From an uncultured Opitutia bacterium (GTDB lineage Bacteria > Verrucomicrobiota > Verrucomicrobiia > Opitutales > Opitutaceae): a DNA stretch of 32,098 bases. Position 1 is the first letter of the stretch. Each line of letters opens with the position of its first letter. The DNA is taken from NCBI GenBank assembly GCA_903869665.1, contig CAIPZZ010000119.1, positions 1 through 32,098 on the forward strand. The letters are read 5' to 3'. Positions 2 through 32,096 of this stretch are shown here, one piece after another. A program made the translations under genes and the position numbers. The notes under the pieces were generated by a model. It ran no database searches, had not been told where the DNA came from, and saw nothing but the letters and a program-made list of their open reading frames with translations.

Positions 2-802
2 GGCCCGCCCGCGCCCGTGCCGCCGGCGGTCGCCATGGCCCGCCCGACCGAAGCCGAGCTGGTGCAACTCAACGACGCGGTGAAGCGTTTCGTCGCCTCG
101 AACCCAATCGCGACCAAATATCCGTCGCTCGTCACCGTGACTCCCCCGCGCGCCAACCCAGCCGCTTCCTACAGCCGCAGCGGCGTGCGCAATGACCAAC
201 GGCACAACGCGTTCGTCGAATTGGCGAAGAAGGGCGACATCGACATATTATTCCACGGCGACTCGATTACCGACTGGTGGCAGCAGGCCGGCGCGCAGGG
301 CGGCAAAGAGGTCTTCGACAAGTATTTTGGCGGCCAGAAAATCGCCAACTTCGCCATCGCGGGCGACACCACCCAGGGCCTGCTTTGGGGCCTGAAAAAC
401 GGCGAGGGCGAAGGCTTCTCGCCCAAGGCCATCATGCTGATGATCGGCACCAACAATACCGGCGGCAACACCGGCCCCGAGATCGCCGAGGGCGTGGGTG
501 CGGTGGTGCAGGAATTGCGGACCCGCTTCCCGTCAGCCAAAATACTCCTGCTGGCCATCTTTCCGCGCGGCGCCGGTCCGACCGACGCCAACCGTCTGAA
601 AAACGACGAGGCCAACAAGATCATCGCCAAGCTGCATGACAACCGGAACGTGTTCTTCATGGATCTCGCGCCGAAGTTTCTCGACGACAAGGGCGTGATC
701 CTACCCGGCCTGTTCCGTAACGACAACCTCCACCCCGCCGCCCCCGGCTACGAAGTCTGGGCGCAGGCCGTGAAGGACAAACTCGCCGAACTGATGAAAT
801 AA
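2..802 (+). CDS. GDSL/SGNH-family hydrolase (5'-truncated at window edge)
   Basis: HGDSITDWW, GDTTQG, GTNN and DNLHPAAPGY blocks. The frame is open to the left edge (GPPAPVPPAVAMARPTEAEL) and matches the linker of the downstream paralog, so the GTG at 17 is probably not the true start. Confidence 0.88.
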   Translation, partial: GPPAPVPPAVAMARPTEAELVQLNDAVKRFVASNPIATKYPSLVTVTPPRANPAASYSRSGVRNDQRHNAFVELAKKGDIDILFHGDSITDWWQQAGAQGGKEVFDKYFGGQKIANFAIAGDTTQGLLWGLKNGEGEGFSPKAIMLMIGTNNTGGNTGPEIAEGVGAVVQELRTRFPSAKILLLAIFPRGAGPTDANRLKNDEANKIIAKLHDNRNVFFMDLAPKFLDDKGVILPGLFRNDNLHPAAPGYEVWAQAVKDKLAELMK

Positions 803-951
803 TCCCGTCCCACCAGAAACATCCCAGCATTCCCAACCTAGCAACAAACCATCCTTCCGCGCGAAAATTGCTTTTTGCCTTGCCGGAAACGAGGGCGCAA
901 TGTCACCACCCGTTTAGCTTAGCTTCTCATCCATCCCCAACCCACCCTGCC

Positions 952-2001
952 ATGAAAACTGTCCGCTCCCTCCCTGCGCGCCCGCTTGTCCGGGCGCTTT
1001 GCGCCCTGGCCCTCGCCGGGGCTGTCGTCATTCCCTCCAGCGCCCAGCCCGGTGGCGCGCCCGGTCAACCCGGCCAGCCGCCCGCTGGCGGCGCTGGATT
1101 TCCAGGCGGTAACGCGGGCGGATTTCCGGGCGGTGCCGGCGGTGCCCGTGGCGGCGCTCCTGGCGGCCCCGGCGGTGCTCGGGGCGGTCGCGGCGGACAA
1201 ATTCCGACCGGCCCGGCCGCGCCCGTGCCCGCCGAGGTTACCATCCCTCGCCCGACCGAGGCTGAACTGGCGCAGCTCAACAGCGCCGTGAACCAGTTCG
1301 TCGCCTCCAACCCGCTGGCGAAAAAATACGCGTCGCTGATCAGCGTCACGCCCCCGCGCGCGGTCAATCCCGCCGCCACCTTCACCCAAAGCAATGTGCG
1401 GAACGCCCAGCGGCACGACGCCTTCGTCGCGCTGGCGCAGAAGGGCGACATTGACCTGCTCTTCGACGGCGACTCGATCACCGACTTTTGGCAGAACGCC
1501 GGCAAGCCGGTCTTCGACAAATATTTTGGCGGCATGAAGGTGGCCAACTTCGCCGTCTCCGGCGACACCACCCAAGGCGTGCTCTGGGGCCTGAAGAACG
1601 GCGAGGGCCAGGGCTTCTCGCCCAAGGCCATCATGCTGATGATCGGCACCAACAACGCCACCCAAGGGAGCACCGGGCCAGAGATCGCCGAAGGCGTCGG
1701 CGCGATCGTGATGGAGATGCGGAAGGATTTCCCAAACGCGAAAATCCTGCTGCTCGCCATCTTCCCGCGCGGCGCAGGGCCCACCGATGCGAACCGCCTC
1801 AAAAACATCGAGGCGAACAAGCTCATCGCCAAGCTGCATGACAACAAGAACGTGTTCTACTTGGACATCGGCGACAAGTTCCTCCAGCCCGACGGCAGCA
1901 TCGCCCGTGAGATCATGGGCGACGCGCTGCACCCCACGGCTGCCGGTTACGAGATCTGGGCCGCCGCCGTGAAAGACAAGCTCGCCGAGCTGATGAAGTG
2001 A
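952..2001 (+). CDS. Secreted GDSL/SGNH-family hydrolase with Gly/Pro-rich linker
   Basis: DGDSITDFW, GDTTQG, GTNN, DALHPTAAGY. Likely start MKTVRSLPARP at 952 with a signal peptide, then a PGG/ARGG-rich linker. Close paralog of the preceding gene. Confidence 0.9.
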   Translation: MKTVRSLPARPLVRALCALALAGAVVIPSSAQPGGAPGQPGQPPAGGAGFPGGNAGGFPGGAGGARGGAPGGPGGARGGRGGQIPTGPAAPVPAEVTIPRPTEAELAQLNSAVNQFVASNPLAKKYASLISVTPPRAVNPAATFTQSNVRNAQRHDAFVALAQKGDIDLLFDGDSITDFWQNAGKPVFDKYFGGMKVANFAVSGDTTQGVLWGLKNGEGQGFSPKAIMLMIGTNNATQGSTGPEIAEGVGAIVMEMRKDFPNAKILLLAIFPRGAGPTDANRLKNIEANKLIAKLHDNKNVFYLDIGDKFLQPDGSIAREIMGDALHPTAAGYEIWAAAVKDKLAELMK

Positions 2002-15184: not shown

Positions 15185-16153
15185 TTACGGCGCGGCGAAC
15201 TCCACGATGACCGGCAAATGGTCGGAGCCCACATCCGGCCCAATGGAACGACGGAAGACGCGCAGCTCAGGCGACAACAGGCATTGGTCAATCGGGATGC
15301 GGAGAAAAAACGGCGCGCTCGGCCAGCTTCCTTGATAACCGCGGCCCCGCGAGCTGTCCTCCAGGCCGGTGATCGCAAGCAGCCGCTGGAAGTGGCCGTT
15401 CCACGGCGTGGTGTTGAGATCGCCCAGCAAAATCTTCGGGCCGGGCTGCTGATTCAGGAACCTGCCCGCCGCGTCGAGCTGCTGGTTGCGGAGCCGCGAG
15501 TTTTCCCGGCCACCTGGGGGCAGCGGATGCGTGCCCAGCACCGAGAGCACCGTCCCGCCGACGGCAATCCGCGCGAAAACCGAGGGTGCCTCCGCGTCGC
15601 CGAGCCAAACCACCTTCGGCCCCACGAGCGGATGCCGGCTGACCAGCATGATGCCGAAATTGTCCTCGCGCGTCTCGGCGAGCACGTAAGGAAACAAATC
15701 CCGCAGCGGCTCCAGCTCGCGCCGCCACACCGCGTCAATCTCCTCCAGCACAGCAAAATCCGGCCGTGTCTCGCGGAGAAAATCGCGCACGCGGCCAAAC
15801 TGGCGGTTCTCGGTGCGGACGTTCAGCAGCACAGCGTGGACGGCCGGGCCGGAGCCGGCGGCGGTCGTCGGGGTAACCCAACCCATGTGCGGCAGGAGCA
15901 CGGCGGCGTTCACGGCCGCGAGCACCACCGCAAACCCGGCCCAACGCCATTGACGGCGAAACGCGTGGACCACGGCGATCACCAACGCGCCCGCGAGATA
16001 TTGCGCCCGAAAGTGCGACGTGAGATCGAACGCCCACCAAAACCAGCCGAGAAAGCCGGTCGCGGTGAACAGAGCCGTGAACGCCGCGATCAAAAACAGC
16101 AGGGCGGCCCAAGCCCCCCGCAGGCTAAAGGCGACCGGCCGACCGGCACTCAT
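15185..16153 (-). CDS. Endonuclease/exonuclease/phosphatase (EEP) family membrane-anchored protein
   Basis: N-terminal TM segments, then LLNVRTENRQFGRVRDFLRETRPDFAVLEEID, NFGIMLVSRHPL, LLGDLNTTPWNGHF, GSDHLPVIVEF. Confidence 0.88.
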   Translation of the reverse strand: MSAGRPVAFSLRGAWAALLFLIAAFTALFTATGFLGWFWWAFDLTSHFRAQYLAGALVIAVVHAFRRQWRWAGFAVVLAAVNAAVLLPHMGWVTPTTAAGSGPAVHAVLLNVRTENRQFGRVRDFLRETRPDFAVLEEIDAVWRRELEPLRDLFPYVLAETREDNFGIMLVSRHPLVGPKVVWLGDAEAPSVFARIAVGGTVLSVLGTHPLPPGGRENSRLRNQQLDAAGRFLNQQPGPKILLGDLNTTPWNGHFQRLLAITGLEDSSRGRGYQGSWPSAPFFLRIPIDQCLLSPELRVFRRSIGPDVGSDHLPVIVEFAAP

Positions 16154-17217
16154 GGACTGGCAGCGGGGCTTTTTTCCGCCGTCGGTGGCGCGGCTGGCGC
16201 GGGCGGCGGCGCGACGTAGAGCGCGGCGAGTTCGCGGAGGATGGGCTCGAGGGCGGCGTAGTAGCCGTCCTCGCTCAGGTTGGCTTTCTGGCCACGCAGC
16301 GCTTCGAGCCGGCGCTCCAGATCGGCGCGTTTTTCCAATTGGCCGGGCGTCATCGCGCGCTCGGCGTCGCTGGGCGCGAGCGTGACGAGTTTCGCGCGCG
16401 CGCCGTCCACCGCCGGGGCCGCGCCGCCGCCGCGCGGGGGCTGGGCCTTTTTCACGATGCGTGTGCCCTTGAAAAAATCCGCCTGCGTGCCGGTTTTGTC
16501 TCCGTTGTCGTCCACGGCAGCGTGCTCGGTCAGCAACCGGTCGGCGTCACGGTAGAACCCCTGCACGCGCTGGGCGGTGGTGACAAACGCCTCGAGCAGC
16601 GAGACCTGACCGTCCTGGTCAATGTCCGTGTCGGGGTCCGCCATCGCCTCGGCGAATCGCTCACCGAAGCGGGCGTAGTTGAGCTCATTGCCGCTGCGCG
16701 TGGCGGCGATGACAACGCGGTCGGGGCCAGAGAGAGCGGTGACAAACGGGTAGCCGGCCGAGCTGCCGTCAATCACGATCACCGGGCGGCGCAACGGTTG
16801 GAGCCAGGCGGCAAGATCGGCGGGCAGGATGTCGGGGCCACGTAGGTTCATGCGCGCGTCGCGGCCGTCGAACGTGCCGTGGCCGACGTAGGCGATCCAG
16901 ACGTGCGAGGTCGCGGTGGGGTCGAGCTTAGCGATCCAATCGCGCACGCGATCCTTGTCGGTGGGCGCGGCCTCGGCGTCCTTTTTCGGATCAAGGCCGA
17001 TGACCGTGCAGTTGGCACGCGCGCGGTCGCAGGCCGTCTGCCAGTTTTTCGCAGCGGCCGCGAAACCGTCAGCAAACGTGTCCTCGCCGGGCGCGCCGAT
17101 GATGACGAGCACCTCGTCGCGGGCGGTGGGGGCGGCGGGCTCCGCCGCCGCAAGAAGCTGGGAGCAGAGGGAAAGGAGCAGGGCGGCCAGTGCGGCGGCG
17201 CGAAAGATATTTTTCAT
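16150..17217 (-). CDS. Caspase-like fold protein with EF-hand loop, secreted
   Basis: DEVLVIIGAPGED..., WIAYVGHGTFDGRDARMNLRG, RPVIVIDGSSAGYPFVTALSGPDRVVIAATRSGNELNYARFGERFAEAMADPDTDIDQDGQVSLLEAF. Start at 17217 (MKNIFRAAALAALLLSL). Confidence 0.7.
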   Translation of the reverse strand: MKNIFRAAALAALLLSLCSQLLAAAEPAAPTARDEVLVIIGAPGEDTFADGFAAAAKNWQTACDRARANCTVIGLDPKKDAEAAPTDKDRVRDWIAKLDPTATSHVWIAYVGHGTFDGRDARMNLRGPDILPADLAAWLQPLRRPVIVIDGSSAGYPFVTALSGPDRVVIAATRSGNELNYARFGERFAEAMADPDTDIDQDGQVSLLEAFVTTAQRVQGFYRDADRLLTEHAAVDDNGDKTGTQADFFKGTRIVKKAQPPRGGGAAPAVDGARAKLVTLAPSDAERAMTPGQLEKRADLERRLEALRGQKANLSEDGYYAALEPILRELAALYVAPPPAPAAPPTAEKSPAASP

Positions 17218-19598
17218 GGCAATCCTTTCCAACGGCGCCAGCCCCACTCGGCGAGGAAGCAGGCGAGCACGGCAAGAAACACCGCGCTCTGCTGCCATAG
17301 CGGGAGCGTCCACTGCTCCGTGACAGGCGCGGGGGCCTGCGCCATTTTTTTGGCGAGGGCGTCGAGGCCAGACCATGCGACCACTTCGCCGCCGGTGCGG
17401 CGGGCGAGCTCCTCGAGCAGCGCGCGGTTGGGCGCGAGGGTGCGGAACTCGTCAGCGGCGGGATCGCTGATCCAGCCGGCCTGTGCCTTGCCGATGACCT
17501 GGCCGGCGCGGTCGGTGACGGCGACTTCGGCAAGATAGGCTCCGGCGTCACGCGGCGCAAAGGTGGCGGTGAACTGGCCCGGCGCGTCGGCGACCGGCTC
17601 GGCGGGCAACGTGACCTCGGTGAAAGCAGGCGCGGCGTCCTTTTTCGCCGGCTCGGTGCCGACGCGCTTCACGTTGATCTTGACGCTTGCGAGGTCGAGC
17701 GGGCGGAACTCCTGGTCGCGCGCGGTCACGCGCAGCGTCATGCCGCCGGCCTCCTCGGCGGCGGGCTCGGCGCGGATCTCGACGGGCGCGGGCACGTCGG
17801 TCACGAGCCAGCGGGCGAGTTGCCGCCAGAACCGCGCCATGTCGGCCATCTCGGCCTCGCCCTGCATGCCCCAGTCCCAGAGGTTGGCGAGGGTGAGCAC
17901 GGCGACGCGGCCCGCACCGTAGTGCTGCGCCACGAGCGCGGGCACGCTTAGCCCGGCCTCGTCGCGAACGGTGGAGAGCACGGTCGCGGCGGGCTTGACG
18001 CGGGTGACAAGGTTGGTCGCCCCGCCCCCGATTTTTTTCATCGCGTCGAGGCGCTTGCGCTCGTCGGCCTCGATCGCACGGACGCGCGTCCACGGCTCCA
18101 GCCAGCCCTCGCGCGTAAGATTCCACGCGAGATCGCCCTGGATGAGGGTGTTGGTTTTGCCGAGATAGACGGGCAGCGCGGAGGCGAGCGGGGTGTTGTC
18201 GTAGCCACCGGCCTCGAGCGACTCCTGTCCGCCGAGCATGAGCAGGCCGCCGCCGCGCTCGGCGGCGAAGCGCCGGAGCAGGCCGAGCTGGTCGGAGGTG
18301 AAGAACGAGGCTTCGACCTTGCCGAGGATGATGGCGTCATAGGTGAACAGCTCGGCGGCGCTCTTGGGAAAGCCGGCCTTGAGCTTCGCGGCCTCCTCGT
18401 CGTCCTTGGGGTTGACAGCCTCCAGCACGGGCTGGTCGTAGCGCTGGGTGTCGTCGGTCGCCGCGCCCGCGCCACGGAAGATGGGGTTGCTGGTCTCGCC
18501 GGCGCGGCCGAGAAACGTCATCTTCGGCTCGCGGTTGGCGATGCGGATGATACCGGGGAGCTGAAGCTGAGGGTCGTCGGCGAGGGCGCGGTTGAGGAAC
18601 TTGAACTCCCAGTCGGGCCGGCCAGCGACGTAGAGGATGCGATAGGCCGGGCGGCCGCGGTCCACGAGCACGGCGCGGCGGTTGTTGAGCGCCGTGGCCT
18701 CGGCGATGTTCTCCTTCGCCGTGGCGGTAACCTCGAAAAATTGCACGCCGCTGCCACCGGGCCGCCAACTGAACTCCGCCGCGGCCGCCAGCTCGCCGTC
18801 GGCCACCAGCCGCACCGACTGCGGCGCGGGCAGCTCGCCACTGGTGGCCCCGGCGAGCGGGCGGACGCTCACGAGATAATCGCTGCCGGCGAGGCCCTGC
18901 CCGGTGAGCTCAGCGCGCAGCGTGACGGGCGCGTCGTCAAACGAGGTCTGTCGCACCTCGACGCGCGCGATGCCCGCGTCGCGCAGGCCGTCGGCCGTGC
19001 CGAGGAGGACGGGATAGACGGGCGGCAGGCCGCCGGTGTCGCCGAGGCCATTGGGCAGGTCCGTGGCGTTGCCGTCGGTGAAGAGGATGATGCCGGCGAG
19101 CGGCTGGCCGGCGAGTCGCTCGCGGAGCTTTTTCAACGCGGAGCCGAGCGCAGTGCCGCCGCCTTTGAAGTCGAGCTCGCCGAAGTCGCGCACGCGCCGG
19201 AGGTCGCGGTCGAAGACATAGGGGCGGACCTGAAAGTCGCCGGCGATTTTTTCGAGCCACGGCTGGGCGGGGCTGGCGGCGAGCGCGGCACGGAGCTTGT
19301 CGCCGCGCGCGGCGGGGTCGCCGGCGTCGGCGACCTGGAGGCTCTGGCTGTTGTCGGCGAGGATGGCGACGAGGTTGGCGCCCTTTTTCGGACGCGTGGA
19401 GACCCACTGGGGGTCGAGCAGGCAGAGCAGCAGGAGCGCGATGCCAAGCGTGCGCAGGCCGAGGCCGATGGCGCGCGCGCCGGCCTGCGGGCCGGCGGGG
19501 CGCAGCGCGAGCCACGCGAGCGGCACGAGCACGGCGGCAGCGACGGCGGCGGCGGGCAGCCACGCGGTGTTGTCAAAGGTGAGCGCGGCCAGCGTCAT
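17214..19598 (-). CDS. Membrane protein with VWA and glutamine-amidotransferase-like regions
   Basis: N-terminal TM, ILADNSQSLQVAD (DxSxS MIDAS), IILFTDGNATDLP, RGGGLLMLGGQESLEAGGY, C-terminal TM. Confidence 0.8.
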   Translation of the reverse strand: MTLAALTFDNTAWLPAAAVAAAVLVPLAWLALRPAGPQAGARAIGLGLRTLGIALLLLCLLDPQWVSTRPKKGANLVAILADNSQSLQVADAGDPAARGDKLRAALAASPAQPWLEKIAGDFQVRPYVFDRDLRRVRDFGELDFKGGGTALGSALKKLRERLAGQPLAGIILFTDGNATDLPNGLGDTGGLPPVYPVLLGTADGLRDAGIARVEVRQTSFDDAPVTLRAELTGQGLAGSDYLVSVRPLAGATSGELPAPQSVRLVADGELAAAAEFSWRPGGSGVQFFEVTATAKENIAEATALNNRRAVLVDRGRPAYRILYVAGRPDWEFKFLNRALADDPQLQLPGIIRIANREPKMTFLGRAGETSNPIFRGAGAATDDTQRYDQPVLEAVNPKDDEEAAKLKAGFPKSAAELFTYDAIILGKVEASFFTSDQLGLLRRFAAERGGGLLMLGGQESLEAGGYDNTPLASALPVYLGKTNTLIQGDLAWNLTREGWLEPWTRVRAIEADERKRLDAMKKIGGGATNLVTRVKPAATVLSTVRDEAGLSVPALVAQHYGAGRVAVLTLANLWDWGMQGEAEMADMARFWRQLARWLVTDVPAPVEIRAEPAAEEAGGMTLRVTARDQEFRPLDLASVKINVKRVGTEPAKKDAAPAFTEVTLPAEPVADAPGQFTATFAPRDAGAYLAEVAVTDRAGQVIGKAQAGWISDPAADEFRTLAPNRALLEELARRTGGEVVAWSGLDALAKKMAQAPAPVTEQWTLPLWQQSAVFLAVLACFLAEWGWRRWKGLP

Positions 19599-24508: not shown

Positions 24509-26719
24509 TTAAGACGAAGTTGCGGCGGCGGGGACGGGGACGGCCTCGCGGCGGGCAATCAGATAGGAGAAGAGGCTCTCGAACGCAAGCAGCACAGCGG
24601 CCCCGGCCAGCAGCCAGCGCCAGAGCTTCTGGCGGCCTTCTAGCACGACGGCGGTCTGCGTGCCGGCGGCGGGCTTGGGGGCCTCGCCGGCGGCGAGCGC
24701 GCCGGGCGTGGGGGCGCGCAAGGGGACGCCGAGCTTCTCCAGATCGTCGAGCGGCAGCGGGGCGACGTTGCTCTCTGCGGCTGGAGCTTGCACGGCGACG
24801 AGTAGGGTCGTGCCGGCCTCGTTGAGCTCATAGACGCCGGGTTGCACCGGGGCAGTGTTGGCCAAGGTCGCGGTGCTGTCCAGCGCCGAGCGCCATTGCG
24901 CGGGGCCGGCGGTGACGAGCCGCGCGGTGTCGCCAACCTCCGCCACGGCCGGGCGCACGGCCCCGCCGGCGGCGCGCTCAAACAACGCCTGCAGCCACGG
25001 GACAAACTTGGTCGAGATCACCCACTGGCCGGCGGCGGTGGACCAGTCGCCACCCCACACCACGAGGCGGCCCTTGCCCACCGGAACTTCCAGCACGGCG
25101 GGCGTGCCGTCGTCAAAGCGAGCGGCGACGACGGCCTTGGTGCCGATGGGAAGCGCGACGGGCTGCGGCTTCCAGAAGCGGACGGCGGTGAAATTGCTGA
25201 AGCGCGGATCGGCGAATGGCGCGAACAACGGGTGCCGCAGGTCCACGCTGCCGAGCAGCGCGTCGGCCCGCGCGGCGGCCGCTGGTGCCCAGCCGGCCTC
25301 GCCGGCCAGCTCGGCGGCCGTGGCGACCATCGCGGGGTCGTTGAGCAGCACGACGGCGAACTCGCCGGCGGCGAGCCGGGCGCGGAGCGCGCGGGCGGCG
25401 TCAGTGGTGAGCGGCGCGGCGACGACGGAGAACTCGGAGGCGCTTTTCTCCGTCGCGCCAGCGCCGGACCGAGCGGCGGCGGTGGCGGGATCCGCACCTT
25501 GAGATTTGGGATCCGCGGACGCGCCCGTGGACGCGGCGGTGGCGACCGGCGAGAGACCTTCGGTGACGGCGCGGACTTTCACGACGGGGTCTTTCCAGCC
25601 GGCGGTGGCGCGCTCGAGATAGAAGCGCGCATGCTTCAGATCGTCGGCCGAGTCCGCGCCATAATAGGCGAGCGTGAGCGCGCGGGGCGCGGGGCGCACG
25701 AGCCAAAGCGTGTTGTCAAACGGCTCGGCGTCGCCCTCCAGGTCGAGCCGGAGCGGGCCATCGGGGGCGGAGCCGGGAACGGGCACGAGGGCGACGAGCG
25801 CGTCACCGGCGGGAACCGTGACGGCCTGCGGCGGGGCGAGGTCGCGGCCGGTGCGGGCGTCACGCAGGCGGAGGCGGAGCGGGCTGGCGGGAGCGGCGGC
25901 GCTTTGCACGACGCGCACGCGGGCCACGGCCTTGGGCGGAAACGGGTCGCCGGACGCGGCGGCAGCGGAGACATCGGGCGCCCAGCCGAGCCATTGGAGG
26001 CCGGCGTTGCCGGGCTGGCCGGGCTTGAGCTGCTCTAGGACGACCTCACAGTTCTTCGGCCAAGTGAGGCCAGCGAGGCCGGCGACGCGCGTGCCGGCGG
26101 CGAGGTCGGAGACAATGACGAGCTTTTTGCGCGCGGCGCTGTCGGTCGCCTCGGCCATCTGCTCCCACTGCAGCACGGCGGTCTCGACGGCGGTGTCGAG
26201 CTGCGTCGGCCCCCAGCCCGGCTCGCGGGCGGCGAGGACGGACTTCACGAAATTGGCACGGTCGGGCGCGGGCGTCTGCAGCCAACGCTCGCGGCTCACG
26301 AGCTCGGCGCCGGAGGTTGCGAAGAGGACGAACTGGTCGCCCTCCTTGAGGGAGGCGGCGAGGTCGGAGATTTTCTGCCGTGCGGCGGGCCAGAGGCCGG
26401 TGCGCCGCATCGAGGCGCTGTCGTCGAGGAGGGCGACGACGCTCTGCGGCGCGCCGGGCTGTAGCACGAGCGGCACGTCCTGCCGTAGAAACGGCCGCGC
26501 GAAGCCCGCCGCGAGCACGGCGACGATGAGGCAGCGGAGCAGGAGGAGCAACGGATGCTGGATGCGGCTGCGCTTGCTGAGGCGCGGCGGTGACTCGGAA
26601 AGGAAACGCATCGCGCTGAACTGCTGCCGCTCGCGCGTCACGCGCCGGATGAGGTGCGCGATGATCGGGCCGGCGATGAGCGCGAAACCCGCGAGGAACC
26701 AAGGAGAGAGAAAATTCAT
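24509..26719 (-). CDS. BatA-type (aerotolerance N-terminal domain) VWA membrane protein
   Basis: MNFLSPWFLAGFALIAGPIIAHLIRR, VVALLDDSASMRRTG (MIDAS), C-terminal TM. Confidence 0.88.
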   Translation of the reverse strand: MNFLSPWFLAGFALIAGPIIAHLIRRVTRERQQFSAMRFLSESPPRLSKRSRIQHPLLLLLRCLIVAVLAAGFARPFLRQDVPLVLQPGAPQSVVALLDDSASMRRTGLWPAARQKISDLAASLKEGDQFVLFATSGAELVSRERWLQTPAPDRANFVKSVLAAREPGWGPTQLDTAVETAVLQWEQMAEATDSAARKKLVIVSDLAAGTRVAGLAGLTWPKNCEVVLEQLKPGQPGNAGLQWLGWAPDVSAAAASGDPFPPKAVARVRVVQSAAAPASPLRLRLRDARTGRDLAPPQAVTVPAGDALVALVPVPGSAPDGPLRLDLEGDAEPFDNTLWLVRPAPRALTLAYYGADSADDLKHARFYLERATAGWKDPVVKVRAVTEGLSPVATAASTGASADPKSQGADPATAAARSGAGATEKSASEFSVVAAPLTTDAARALRARLAAGEFAVVLLNDPAMVATAAELAGEAGWAPAAAARADALLGSVDLRHPLFAPFADPRFSNFTAVRFWKPQPVALPIGTKAVVAARFDDGTPAVLEVPVGKGRLVVWGGDWSTAAGQWVISTKFVPWLQALFERAAGGAVRPAVAEVGDTARLVTAGPAQWRSALDSTATLANTAPVQPGVYELNEAGTTLLVAVQAPAAESNVAPLPLDDLEKLGVPLRAPTPGALAAGEAPKPAAGTQTAVVLEGRQKLWRWLLAGAAVLLAFESLFSYLIARREAVPVPAAATSS

Positions 26720-27021
26720 GGGGTGATTTCTTTGCTCTTGAGCCGTTCAACTCGATTTTTCCCAAGCCTTTTCATGAACCAGACGAGGAGATCGCCCGGA
26801 GCAATAATGACAATGTTCAAGCCTAGTGTCTTCCAAAGACCCCATTGAGAATCCCATTGAGAATAATAGATGAAACATATCCACATCGCGGGAACAATTC
26901 TGAGCGAATCGATCCAATTCATCGCCCTCGACTCATGAGCGAAAAACACGGCACAGCATCTTGCCGCCAAAAGCGTCACGTAAATGCAGAGTAGAAACAA
27001 TACTGTGGCTTGGTCGCTCAT
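26716..27021 (-). CDS. Small hypothetical membrane protein (101 aa)
   Basis: Hydrophobic segments, 4-nt overlaps with both neighbours, AT-richer than the surroundings. Confidence 0.65.
   Translation of the reverse strand: MSDQATVLFLLCIYVTLLAARCCAVFFAHESRAMNWIDSLRIVPAMWICFIYYSQWDSQWGLWKTLGLNIVIIAPGDLLVWFMKRLGKNRVERLKSKEITP
26841..26864. repeat. Perfect 12-bp tandem duplication, in frame
   Basis: cccattgagaat x2, encoding the repeated SQWD/SQWG in YYSQWDSQWGLW. Confidence 0.8.
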
Positions 27022-27950
27022 CGCTGGATCCTCCGGGTGGCGAAGCGCCGCGCCGCGCCGCGCGGCTGGATGAGCTCCAGCAGCGCAAAATCGAGCGGCT
27101 GGTCGGTTGTCACGACCTGGTGGGCCACACCGCGCTGATCAAACGCGGCGGCGACCTCGGTTTGGTGCGCGTTGAATTTTTCGAGGTAGCCCGCGCGCGC
27201 CTGCTGCGGATCCACATAGAGCTGGCGGCCCGTCTCCATGTCCTCCCAGTTGGCGGCGGTGCCGAACTCCAGCGTGCGCTCCGCCGGGTCGAGCACCTGC
27301 ACGACGCGCACGTCGTGGCGCGCGGCGGTCAGGTGGCCGAGCGCGGCCTCCCACTCGGCGACCGGCGACAGAAAATCCGAGAGGATGAAAATGAGGCTGC
27401 GCTTGCGCGTGAGCAGCGCGGCCTGCTCCAGCGCGTGGCCGAGGCGCGTGTCGCGGCCCGAGGGCTCGCGGTCGAGCGCGGCGACGAGGCGGCGGAAATG
27501 CCCCGGCCGGAAACGCGGCGGGATGTAGTCGGTGATCTCGTCGGCGAACATCGCCAGCCCGATCACGTCGCGCTGCTGGTGCAGGAACAGCGCAAACGTC
27601 GCCGCCAACGTGCGCGCGTAGTCGGCCTTGGTCCAGCCGCGCGAGCCGAAGAGCATGGAGCGGCTGGTGTCCACGAGGAAGAGACAGCGGAGATTAGTCT
27701 CTTCCTCGTATTTCTTGATAAACTCACGGTCGGTGCGGGCGGCGACTTTCCAGTCGAGGTGGCGCAGGTCGTCGCCGGGAGAGTATTGGCGGTATTCGGT
27801 GAACTCGACCGAGAACCCGCTGTAGGGTGAGCGGTGCAGGCCGCTCCACAGCCCCTCAACGACAACGCGCGCGCGCAGTTCCAGATCGCGGATGGCGAGC
27901 AGGGCCTGCGGGTCAATGCCGCGCGGGGGAGGAGTGGAGGTGGGGGTCAT
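27018..27950 (-). CDS. DUF58 domain (VWA-like) protein
   Basis: GLHRSPYSGFSVEFTEYRQYSPGDDLRHLDWKVAARTDREFIKKYEEETNLRCLFLVDTSRSM. Confidence 0.95.
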   Translation of the reverse strand: MTPTSTPPPRGIDPQALLAIRDLELRARVVVEGLWSGLHRSPYSGFSVEFTEYRQYSPGDDLRHLDWKVAARTDREFIKKYEEETNLRCLFLVDTSRSMLFGSRGWTKADYARTLAATFALFLHQQRDVIGLAMFADEITDYIPPRFRPGHFRRLVAALDREPSGRDTRLGHALEQAALLTRKRSLIFILSDFLSPVAEWEAALGHLTAARHDVRVVQVLDPAERTLEFGTAANWEDMETGRQLYVDPQQARAGYLEKFNAHQTEVAAAFDQRGVAHQVVTTDQPLDFALLELIQPRGAARRFATRRIQR

Positions 27951-28375
27951 TTTCTAAAGTTGTAGTCAGAGAGGCCGAGCAATGCGAGCAACTGAGCTTG
28001 AGCGGCGGTTGAAATTGAGCGCAGGCGCACGGTTCCACCATCGCCTCCGCCAAACCAGCCAGGGCCCATAAACAAGCTCAGGCCTAGGCCGCTAGCCGTG
28101 TGAAAATTCACGGTCAGTTGCGGCGTGGGATAGGTCGAGAGGCTAGGAACCTCCATCGGCCCATTCAGGCTGTTTAGATTATCAATTATTTGGCTGATGG
28201 TCGCCGGCTCGGAGATGGTCTTGAGCGGAAGCACATCGTGTCCGTTCACTGTGATCTGGGCCACCAACCCCTTGGCGGGAATGGAGAGTGGCGGGAGTGC
28301 CAGCGCCCCGGACAAACACGCGGACAAAACCAGCATGACCGCCGAGCTGAGAAAAATGGCGAGGCTGGATTTCAT
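27947..28375 (-). CDS. Hypothetical secreted protein (142 aa)
   Basis: Signal peptide MKSSLAIFLSSAVMLVLSACLSGALA, 4-nt overlaps on both sides. Confidence 0.65.
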   Translation of the reverse strand: MKSSLAIFLSSAVMLVLSACLSGALALPPLSIPAKGLVAQITVNGHDVLPLKTISEPATISQIIDNLNSLNGPMEVPSLSTYPTPQLTVNFHTASGLGLSLFMGPGWFGGGDGGTVRLRSISTAAQAQLLALLGLSDYNFRK

Positions 28376-29322
28376 GGATTCTGGAAAACCGGCGTGGGCT
28401 TGGGCAGGATACGCGCGGAAAGTTTTCCGCCGGGCTCGTCGTCAAGGATGAGGCCGGCCTGCTCGATGAGCGCGGAGCGGAGCGCGACGGCGGCCTCGCG
28501 CGCGGGGATGGCGGCGCGAATCTGGAAATTTATTTTCACGTCGGCGGCCAGCACCTCGGCGGGCGCGGAAATTTCCCAGCCACTGATCTCGCGAAGCGTA
28601 TCGAGCGCGGCGGCCACGGGCGCGGCAACGAGGTCGAGGGGGGCGACGGACTTGTCGGGCGGCGGGGGCGGACCCGGCAGACGGACGGGTGCGGCGGGGG
28701 CAGAAACCACCGGCGCGGGCGGGGCCACGACACGGAGGCGGAGCGTGCCGCGTGGCTGCTCGTCGAGCACCACCCCGCCCTGTTCGCGGAGCGTAGCGCG
28801 GAGCGCGGTGGCGGCGGCCGCAGGGGTCGCCGCGTTTTCGACCTTGGCCGTGATGGTGCGCGCGGCGGCGGCGAGCGCCTCGTCGTCCGTGCCGGGCGCG
28901 TAGGTTTTGCCCTCCAGGCCGGCGACGCGGCGCGCGACGATCTCGGCGGAGACGTTGCTCATCTCAAACGCCAGCGCGCCGTCACCCGCGCGTGCGCCAG
29001 CCGGGCGGGCGGCGGTTGGCACGCCAACGCGCGCGAGCAGCGAGCCATCGGGCTGGCTCTCGATGACGACCCCGGCGGCGTTGAGCGCGTAACGGAGGAA
29101 GCTGGCGGCCTGATCGCGCGGGACACCATCGAGGTTGAGCTTGACGGGACGGCGGCCCGTGGCGGTGTCGAGCTGGAGAGTGATTTTTTTACCCTCCAGC
29201 CGGGCGAGCTGCGCGGCGGCGTCCTTCGCCAGGGTGTTGTCAAAATGCAACGACACCAAGTCATCCGCCGCACGCAACGCGGGCGTGAGCAGGGCGAGGA
29301 GCAAGATGGCGAAAAGTTTCAT
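28372..29322 (-). CDS. Secreted protein with three tandem secretin-N-domain/STN-like modules
   Basis: Signal peptide ALRAAD; three ~80-aa units each ending in an AGVVIESQPDGSLLARV-type motif (residues about 22-99, 116-199, 227-305). Confidence 0.72.
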   Translation of the reverse strand: MKLFAILLLALLTPALRAADDLVSLHFDNTLAKDAAAQLARLEGKKITLQLDTATGRRPVKLNLDGVPRDQAASFLRYALNAAGVVIESQPDGSLLARVGVPTAARPAGARAGDGALAFEMSNVSAEIVARRVAGLEGKTYAPGTDDEALAAAARTITAKVENAATPAAAATALRATLREQGGVVLDEQPRGTLRLRVVAPPAPVVSAPAAPVRLPGPPPPPDKSVAPLDLVAAPVAAALDTLREISGWEISAPAEVLAADVKINFQIRAAIPAREAAVALRSALIEQAGLILDDEPGGKLSARILPKPTPVFQNP

Positions 29323-30053
29323 GGCTGCTTGGCGGCGGGCGCCGGGGCCGGGGCGGCGGGCTGTGCCGGTTTCGGGACGAGCCGCACGCGGTAGGAGCCG
29401 TCGGGCTGCTGGTAGAGGAGGACGCCGGCCTTCATCAGCGCCGTGCCTGCGGCGAAAAACATCTCGCTTGTCGTTTGTGGCGTGGTGCCGACATCAAGCA
29501 TAATCGGGGCGAGACCGGCCAGCGCGGCAGAGTCGAAACGGATTTCCTTGCCCGACCATGCGCGCATCCGGTGTAGCAGGATTTCGCCGGTGGCAGCATG
29601 GGCACGCCAAATAATCCGCACGTTCTTCATGTCGGCCGGCGGGATGCCTCCGTCCGCCTTCAGCCCGGCGAAATGCAGCACTCCGTCCGGCAGATCTTCC
29701 CACCCGACGCGGGCCTGTTCCTTAAAAGCGACGCGCAAAACTTTGACCACTTCCTCCACGGTGATCCCATACATCAGCGGAAGACTATAATGTGGGTGCT
29801 TCTCAAGCAATTCGGGATCAATCAGCACCTCATTGGAGCCGACCCATTCTGAAAGCCGATGCATGCCCATTAATATGGGCTCATTATCCATGCCAATGGT
29901 TGTTCTCCTAGTGAGAGCCGCCCGCGCGGCAGCGGCGGAGCCAGCCGGCCAAATGAGCTGGGCCTTGGTCGCTTCGGCAATATGCACAAACCCGAACGCG
30001 GCGAGAAGCAGCGCGAGAAGAAACCGACCGGGATTGGTGAGGGTGGCTTTCAT
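29319..30053 (-). CDS. Secreted protein with C-terminal module related to the downstream STN-like repeats
   Basis: Start MKATLTNPGRFLLALLLAAFG at 30053; C-terminal AGTALMKAGVLLYQQPDGSYRVRLVPKP resembles the repeat ends of 28372..29322. Confidence 0.68.
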   Translation of the reverse strand: MKATLTNPGRFLLALLLAAFGFVHIAEATKAQLIWPAGSAAAARAALTRRTTIGMDNEPILMGMHRLSEWVGSNEVLIDPELLEKHPHYSLPLMYGITVEEVVKVLRVAFKEQARVGWEDLPDGVLHFAGLKADGGIPPADMKNVRIIWRAHAATGEILLHRMRAWSGKEIRFDSAALAGLAPIMLDVGTTPQTTSEMFFAAGTALMKAGVLLYQQPDGSYRVRLVPKPAQPAAPAPAPAAKQP

Positions 30054-30111: not shown

Positions 30112-31140
30112 TCACGTCTCCTTCGGCACGGCGGCGATGAGCTTCTCAATGACCTGCTCGACGGAGATGCCGTCGGCTTCGGCGCGGTAGTTGAGGAGGA
30201 TGCGGTGGCGGAGCACCGGCGCGGCGAGGGCACGGATGTCGTCGCCGGTGACGTGGGCGCGGCCCTGCCAGAGGGCGCGGGCCTTGCCGCCGAGCACAAG
30301 GGCCTGCGCGGCGCGCGTGCCGGCGCCCCAGTTGACCCACTGGTTGATGAAGTCGGGCGCGCCGGCACGCTTGGGGCGCGTGGCGGCGGCGAGGCGCACG
30401 GCGTAGCGCACGACCGTCTCGGCCACGGGCACGCGGCGCACGAGCTCCTGGAACGCGAGCACATCCTCGGCGCTGAAGATGGCCTCGAGCGGGCCGCCCT
30501 GGCGCGCGGTGGTCTGCTGGACAACGGCGACCTCGTCGGACTCCGGCAGGTAATCAATGAGGACGTTGAAGAGAAAGCGGTCGAGCTGCGCCTCGGGAAG
30601 CTGGTAGGTGCCCTCCATCTCGACCGGGTTCTGCGTGGCGAGGACGAAGAACGGCTCGGCGAGGACGTGGCGCACACCGGCGGCGGTGACCTGGTGCTCC
30701 TGCATTGCCTCGAGCAGCGCGGCCTGGGTTTTCGGCGGGGTGCGATTGATCTCGTCGGCGAGGATGATGTTGGCGAAGACGGGGCCCTTGACGAAGGCGA
30801 GGCGGCGGCCTTCGGGCGTGTCGGTGAGGATCTCCGTGCCGGTGATGTCGGAGGGCATCAGGTCGGGCGTGAACTGGATGCGGCTGAATTTGAGGTGAAA
30901 AATCTGGCCAACGGATTTCACGAGCAGCGTCTTGGCGAGGCCGGGCGCGCCGGTGATGAGGCAGTGGCCGCCGGCGAGGAGCGCGAGCAGCAACTGCTCG
31001 ACAACGACGCGCTGGCCGACAACAGCCTTGGCGAGCTCGGCCTCGACCTTGGTGCGGTTGGCCTGTAGGCGCTCAAAGGCGGCCTGGTCGGCGGGCGTCG
31101 TGGGTTTCTGGGCGGGGGCGGTGGGTGCGGGGAGGGACAT
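30112..31140 (-). CDS. MoxR-family AAA+ ATPase
   Basis: AKAVVGQRVVVEQLLLALLAGGHCLITGAPGLAKTLLVKSVGQIF (Walker A), VFANIILADEINRTPPKTQAALLEAMQEHQVTA (Walker B), VLATQNPVEMEGTYQLPEAQLDRFLF. Confidence 0.96.
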   Translation of the reverse strand: MSLPAPTAPAQKPTTPADQAAFERLQANRTKVEAELAKAVVGQRVVVEQLLLALLAGGHCLITGAPGLAKTLLVKSVGQIFHLKFSRIQFTPDLMPSDITGTEILTDTPEGRRLAFVKGPVFANIILADEINRTPPKTQAALLEAMQEHQVTAAGVRHVLAEPFFVLATQNPVEMEGTYQLPEAQLDRFLFNVLIDYLPESDEVAVVQQTTARQGGPLEAIFSAEDVLAFQELVRRVPVAETVVRYAVRLAAATRPKRAGAPDFINQWVNWGAGTRAAQALVLGGKARALWQGRAHVTGDDIRALAAPVLRHRILLNYRAEADGISVEQVIEKLIAAVPKET

Positions 31141-31235: not shown

Positions 31236-32096
31236 TCAGTGGGTCATGGCGTAGAAGAGGATGTTGATCATCATGGGATACGCCTCGGGTTCGGAGAAGC
31301 GCTTGAAATACTCAATGCTTTCCCCCTCGCGCTCCCAGCCGTCGCCAAAGTCGTTGTTGTGGGAGATAAACACCATCATGCGGCCCTTCTTGTCGAAGAT
31401 GCCCTTGAAATGAACATGGCTGGCATCGCCGGAATGGTTGGTCTCATAGGTGAGGCCGCTTCGCAAATAAACATCCTTAGCCGGCATCTGCGGCTTGGCC
31501 TTCAGGTCGAAGACTTGGTGGAAAATGGGATGCTCAATGGGCAGCTCGCGAAGATGGATGTCGCCGTCCAAGTTGGCGCCGGCGGTGTTTTGCCGGAGGC
31601 CGCGCGGCAGCTCGGGAAAGACCTCGGTCATGGCCTCGTAAAAGCCCGCCCACTCGCCCTCGCCCCAGAAGTCGTCGGCCATCATGAAACCTCCGTTGAG
31701 CAGGTATTTTCTCAGATCGGCGGCCTCCTGCCGGGAAAAAGAGAGATTCCCCGGCTCGACCATGTAGACGAACGGATAGCGCGCGAGCTGCGCTGGCGTG
31801 ATGTCCAGGAAATGCAGGCCGGGGGTGACCTTGAGGCTCGTCATCTGGTGGAGCCGGAAGGCTAGGTTCCAATCTGCTTGGGGCACGTCAGTGGACCAGC
31901 GTCCGCCGGCGTAGCGCAGCCGGGCAAAAGTAAAAACGTCGGCGCTGAACTTGGGGTCCACCGCCCAATCGAGGTCGGTGGGCGTGGGGCCGTAGCCGTA
32001 ATTGTTGCCATCGCCGCCCAAGGAACGCAGGCCCGCCCCACCACGCCCGCCCCGGCCGGCACCGCGCCCGCCGCCATTTTGAAATGGCTGCGCGAA
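31236..32096 (-). CDS. DUF4159 domain protein (5'-truncated at right window edge)
   Basis: FTFARLRYAGGRWSTDVPQADWNLAFRLHQMTSLKV, YPFVYMVEPGNLSFSRQEAADLRKYLLNGGFMMADDFWGE. Frame is open to the window end (FAQPFQNGGGRGAGRGGRGGAGLRSLGGDG); the TTG call at 32021 is probably an artefact. Confidence 0.88.
   Translation of the reverse strand, partial: FAQPFQNGGGRGAGRGGRGGAGLRSLGGDGNNYGYGPTPTDLDWAVDPKFSADVFTFARLRYAGGRWSTDVPQADWNLAFRLHQMTSLKVTPGLHFLDITPAQLARYPFVYMVEPGNLSFSRQEAADLRKYLLNGGFMMADDFWGEGEWAGFYEAMTEVFPELPRGLRQNTAGANLDGDIHLRELPIEHPIFHQVFDLKAKPQMPAKDVYLRSGLTYETNHSGDASHVHFKGIFDKKGRMMVFISHNNDFGDGWEREGESIEYFKRFSEPEAYPMMINILFYAMTH

Follow-up and report, generated by a model that had tools for sequence, protein, structure and literature searches.

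Pore-less tandem arrays of secretin N0-type domains inserted between moxR and a DUF58 gene in an Opitutaceae operon

We found that an uncultured freshwater bacterium of the Opitutaceae carries two adjacent genes, here called A and B, whose products contain two and three tandem domains of about 80 residues that are almost certainly of the secretin N0/STN type, in proteins with no detectable secretin pore. Together with a third gene, C, they form a lineage-specific insert in a conserved MoxR-type operon; among the loci compared, inserts were confined to certain species of this genus and to one other genus. The N0 domain itself is known; its pore-less tandem array and this setting appear to be undescribed.

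The window analysed is a stretch of 32,098 nucleotides (contig CAIPZZ010000119.1), in which the operon lies on the minus strand. Its upstream member encodes a DUF4159 protein (31236..32021; Pfam DUF4159, E 2.1e-46) and is followed by the MoxR AAA+ ATPase (30112..31140; AAA_3, E 8.6e-61), gene A (29319..30053, start ATG at 30053), gene B (28372..29322), gene C (27947..28375), a DUF58 (VWA-type) protein (27018..27950; DUF58, E 4.1e-55), a 101-aa membrane-like protein (26716-27021) and a BatA/VWA membrane protein (24509..26719; BatA, E 1e-19). The stop of gene A overlaps the start of gene B. The product of gene C, 142 aa long, has a lipobox-like signal (VLSAC) and is not an N0 module, and no Pfam or NCBIfam family names any of the three genes. 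The 101-aa protein has a low GC3 (0.54) and no counterpart in the five related loci searched, and is a second insert in the same operon. Elsewhere in the window, two adjoining plus-strand frames (17..802 and 868..2001) resemble a tandem pair of SGNH-type hydrolases, and a minus-strand frame aligned with the operon (16150-17376) resembles a caspase-like peptidase, both judged from the translations alone.

Gene B encodes a 316-aa protein. The original prediction had described this open reading frame, its strand unstated, as a signal peptide followed by three tandem modules, and the frame proved real, on the minus strand. Its N-terminus (residues 1-19, 29266..29322; MKLFAILLLALLTPALRA-AD) does read as signal-peptide-like. 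Three units of about 80 aa follow at residues ~23-101, 117-201 and 226-308, with flexible linkers between them. Their pairwise local alignment scores were 77, 66 and 89, none of which was matched in 2000 shuffles, and each unit matched a module profile, built with these modules included, at E 1e-22 to 1e-27 (module 1, 29020..29256, E 1.3e-24; module 2, 28720..28974, E 4.9e-23; module 3, 28399..28647, E 4.8e-27; all on the minus strand). The profile boundaries agreed with those proposed, and the repeat sequences quoted in support were exact. Gene A was found to hold two further modules (module 1, 29661..29894, E 2.8e-24; module 2, 29370..29615, E 6.9e-24; both minus strand), which had been overlooked, as had the lipoprotein-like gene C and the insert status of all three genes. 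The N-terminus of the gene A protein is hydrophobic and similar to that of gene B, and neither protein has a lipobox; from these N-termini, both are very probably exported.

The module profile was built from 15 modules of four species of the window's genus and of G028, a genome of another genus, and included no secretin. When it was searched over 200 genomes of the family, 70 matched at E 1e-4. The array modules made up one part of the matches; the weaker-scoring remainder was mostly a single open reading frame of ~700-800 aa per matching genome. Two of these long frames, one of them from the window's own genome, were identified by Pfam as GspD-type secretins (three PF03958 domains, PF00263, and PF21305 covering the matched stretch), and the stretch matched in both was the N0 domain. 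A pore-domain motif was present in 24 of the 31 loci checked; the seven without it include two non-secretin frames (L084, L085), and the fetched stretch cut some of them short. Aligning the modules by hhalign with the N0 domains of 14 Opitutaceae GspD-type secretins gave a probability of 97.9% (E 4.4e-13), with a score of 60.5; 60 column shuffles never exceeded 19.9, and the reversed profile reached 14.2.

Structure prediction pointed to the same domain. AlphaFold modelled module 1 of gene B, with no secretin in the alignment, at pLDDT 93.9 and pTM 0.82; the model has the beta-alpha-beta-beta-alpha-beta-beta order over ~80 residues that marks the N0/STN fold, and its top PDB match in Foldseek was the GspD N0 domain (4jtm, TM 0.74). 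Other high matches were FoxA, DotD, PulD, XcpQ, InvG, PilQ, PupR and gp44-type phage tail proteins, which correspond to the known set of N0-fold proteins (PMC3093366). The full-length model of gene B showed three N0-like domains, the same strand-helix order recurring in modules 2 and 3, with low-confidence linkers at 102-115 and 202-218 and a pTM of 0.32, as for beads on a string. It retrieved the same N0-containing proteins in Foldseek, but none at E < 0.001. Searching PDB sequences with the gene B protein (phmmer) or with the GspD N0 profile gave no match, and the module profile gave chance matches only, so the PDB support for the N0 identity is structural only.

Two of the 15 modules matched PF21305, both under the Pfam cut-off (best E 0.084), and the Opitutaceae secretin's own N0 likewise fell just short of it; none of the 15 matched PF07660. 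Neither Secretin_N (PF03958) nor the pore domain (PF00263) was matched in gene A or B by Pfam or NCBIfam, Pfam found no TonB receptor barrel, plug or FecR domain in the array proteins, and no FecR match was found in the window's genome. The modules are of the N0/STN type and not of the KH-like N1 type (PF03958), which gave no match. The original prediction had named both the STN and the secretin N families; the former assignment stands, on homology to the GspD N0 profile and the AlphaFold/PDB match, while the latter falls away. Its description of a free-standing array with neither secretin pore nor TonB receptor agreed with the domain searches. Neither a lack of internal repeats nor an unrelated fold was seen, as the repeats are significant and the predicted fold is N0.

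We then compared the region around the DUF58 gene in 40 Opitutales loci, not counting the window. No gene separated MoxR from DUF58 in 37 of the 40, where the gap was usually 17-170 nt, with one gap of 473 nt that held no listed frame. An insert was present in three: G005 has one 399-aa gene with four modules, G004 has one 253-aa gene with two, and G028 has a lipoprotein-like gene with a three-module gene. G001 and G002, which belong to the window's genus, have no insert at this site. Gene order and content vary between species, with N0 repeated two to four times per chain. Among 100 genomes of the family, homologues of gene C were found only in G028, in the same MoxR-DUF58 gap, and in G111, at another locus. 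The MoxR/BatA setting that had been proposed for gene B was confirmed by Pfam for the MoxR (AAA_3), DUF58 and BatA neighbours, but this ties the array to the operon less closely than had been implied, since it is an insert confined to certain lineages and no standard operon component.

Related sequences were also seen elsewhere. G002 carries a multi-module array outside the MoxR operon (G002:C3:126-1399; L003, L107), spread over two overlapping frames and hence frameshifted or misassembled. Isolated C-terminal half-modules occur in G004, where the half-module closes a repeat-containing open frame of 441 aa and is in frame with it (G004:C237:1210-1299; L108), and in G003, as a 40-aa fragment (G003:C338:449-568; L106). 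The named matches were Opitutae MAGs, mostly labelled Umea or Kiruna. In the phylum sample, only single N0-like matches were found outside the array carriers. They include small exported proteins with one N0-like module each in G097 (C6:104337-104567), where the gene adjoins a cation/proton-antiporter-like gene as read from its sequence, and in G064 (C2:157313-157540). They also include a short exported protein with one N0 domain and no secretin in G520 (C66:35456-35686; L111), from a distant family of the phylum, which matched PF21305 at E 8.7e-6, just under the cut-off. A PF07660 scan of 115 genomes gave no obvious tandem arrays, a weak negative since that model also misses the window's array.

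The insert differs sharply from its flanks in conservation. MoxR is 81-89% and DUF58 76-92% identical in close relatives; the two proteins are 88-92% identical between the window and G004 or G005 and 76-81% against G028, whereas the inserted genes align at only about 28-36% identity between the same loci, and single modules share 10-41% in pairwise comparison. This is a contrast and not proof of selection, because DUF4159, from the same operon, has also diverged (about 45-57% identical). In the module tree no orthology was resolved except that of gene A module 1 with G004 module 1, and some inserts may be independent arrivals. Conservation within the array modules is lower in the first half (beta1-alpha1-beta2) than in the remainder (0.17 versus 0.29, permutation p 0.0005), and in GspD N0 the trend is reversed and not significant (p 0.064). 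The low conservation of beta1-alpha1 in the arrays is as expected if a binding face had diversified.

Because N0 is the docking domain in the GspC-GspD and GspB-GspD complexes (PMC3169554; PMC9239104), the tandem N0 domains are best read as a multivalent periplasmic adaptor. Genes A and B would encode exported strings of two and three N0 (STN-type) domains that have a common origin with the GspD-type secretin N0 of the Opitutaceae; N1-N3 and the pore would have been lost or never acquired. The proteins would most likely be free in the periplasm as independent domains on flexible linkers. In the GspC complex, N0 uses beta1 and alpha1 to bind the HR domain by strand augmentation (PMC3169554; PMC9239104), and each N0 of the array may likewise expose its edge strand beta1 and helix alpha1 for pairing with a partner by beta-strand addition, making the protein a multivalent docking adaptor. 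Envelope proteins would be the likely partners. One candidate is the neighbouring MoxR-DUF58-BatA complex, through its periplasmic portion, and another is an HR-type (GspB/GspC/PilP-like) protein. Only a few lineages acquired array genes between moxR and the DUF58 gene, in some cases together with a lipoprotein gene; as the insert runs in the same direction as the operon, the two are probably expressed together. A related Rhizobium operon, RL3499-RL3502, reportedly affects envelope integrity. VWA proteins have been described as partners of MoxR (PMC12067865), and in Borrelia a BatA-like VWA protein faces the periplasm (PMC5700661). Since the operon lacks the insert in most relatives, the array is unlikely to play a core part in the MoxR complex. 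The adaptor reading is further weakened by the failure to find an HR-type protein in the window's genome, by an insert whose gene order and content change from species to species, and by modules that stay below the Pfam cut-off of every N0/STN family. Taken together, we believe in an exported, multivalent periplasmic N0 adaptor about as much as we doubt it, and slightly less in docking adaptors that are tied to this operon.

The insert could instead be cargo: a set of envelope genes that evolve fast, came to lie between moxR and the DUF58 gene, and depend on the operon for expression only, with no functional tie to MoxR. The 37 of 40 related loci with no gene at this junction fit such an origin, as do the frameshifted array at another locus in G002, the relative of gene C outside the operon in G111, and the GC3 of genes A (0.71) and C (0.68), which lies below that of the flanks (0.88-0.92), gene B being at 0.83. 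Two genera, however, have both an array gene and a lipoprotein gene at this same junction, and in the window the genes are tightly packed on one strand with overlapping stops and starts, leaving cargo without a tie to MoxR possible but rather unlikely. A further reading takes the array for a decaying remnant of a secretin duplication with no present function. The frameshifted G002 array and the stray half-modules in G004 and G003 do look like decay. In the window, on the other hand, the frames are intact and show the GC3 bias of coding sequence, the N-termini look like signals and all five modules score strongly, and the arrays in G005, G004 and G028 are intact as well, so that we regard decay as very improbable.

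Soluble N0 copies might also act as decoys for, or regulators of, the secretin or pilus machine of the same cell, by competing with its GspD N0 for the HR-type partner. The closest relatives of the modules are indeed GspD N0 domains, and candidate partners exist. A T2SSC match in G005, weak and under the cut-off (E 0.0047), pointed to an HR-like protein of 195 aa with one transmembrane-like segment and a GspB/GspC/PilP-type C-terminus (G005:C109:3299-3886; L124), which lies upstream of the array on the same contig. Each of the other five members of the genus had an HR-like match, the G004 copy being broken by stops. Competition of this kind nevertheless seems improbable, though less so than decay: conservation within the arrays is lowest in the beta1-alpha1 half, which makes the HR contact in known complexes; the window's own genome (89% complete) gave no HR-type protein; and the array does not lie near the secretin gene.

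The multivalent adaptor remains our preferred reading. In a bolder form of it, which we consider quite unlikely, pore-less tandem N0 arrays are envelope adaptors of a new class, and their module number and binding faces change fast at a fixed MoxR-DUF58 junction for species-specific docking to the same chaperone-type complex. The known role of N0 is at the docking end of secretion pores and receptors, usually with one copy in each chain. Pore-less strings of N0 would show that it can also serve as a docking unit repeated along a chain. Insertion at a single junction of a widespread and poorly understood MoxR operon also provides a natural with/without comparison among close relatives, which could ask what accessory proteins add to that operon.

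Several known systems share features with the array. Like other MoxR-DUF58-VWA (Bat-type) operons, the host operon here has MoxR, DUF58 and BatA, with DUF4159; the array differs from the usual content as an optional insert, absent in most relatives. Mu gp44 shares the N0 fold (PMC3093366), but a Pfam Gp44-like match was weak (E 0.11), and there was no sign of phage genes and no match among phage and plasmid records. PADLOC returned no anti-phage defence match and PHROGs nothing significant, and a thioviridamide RiPP match in the G005 protein (E 3e-5, under the cut-off) covered 26 residues inside a module and was judged to be chance. The STN signalling domain of TonB-dependent receptors (PF07660; FpvA, FoxA, PupB) and the C-terminal domain of FecR/PupR have the same small alpha/beta fold and serve periplasmic protein-protein docking; the array has neither receptor barrel nor anti-sigma part and no Pfam match above cut-off. 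VirB7 XAC2622 and DotD of type IV secretion are, like the array, exported N0 proteins outside a secretin and show that pore-less N0 proteins exist, but they are lipoproteins with one N0 per chain, not tandem, and form part of the T4SS ring (PMC3093366); no T4SS genes were recognised among the frames read around genes A and B. The closest sequence relative found is the N0 of GspD-type secretins in the same bacterial family (PF21305; PDB 4jtm, 3ezj), which the array resembles in predicted fold, strand order and profile homology, and from which it differs in lacking N1-N3 and the pore, in carrying two to four N0 domains per chain and in its poorly conserved beta1-alpha1 face.
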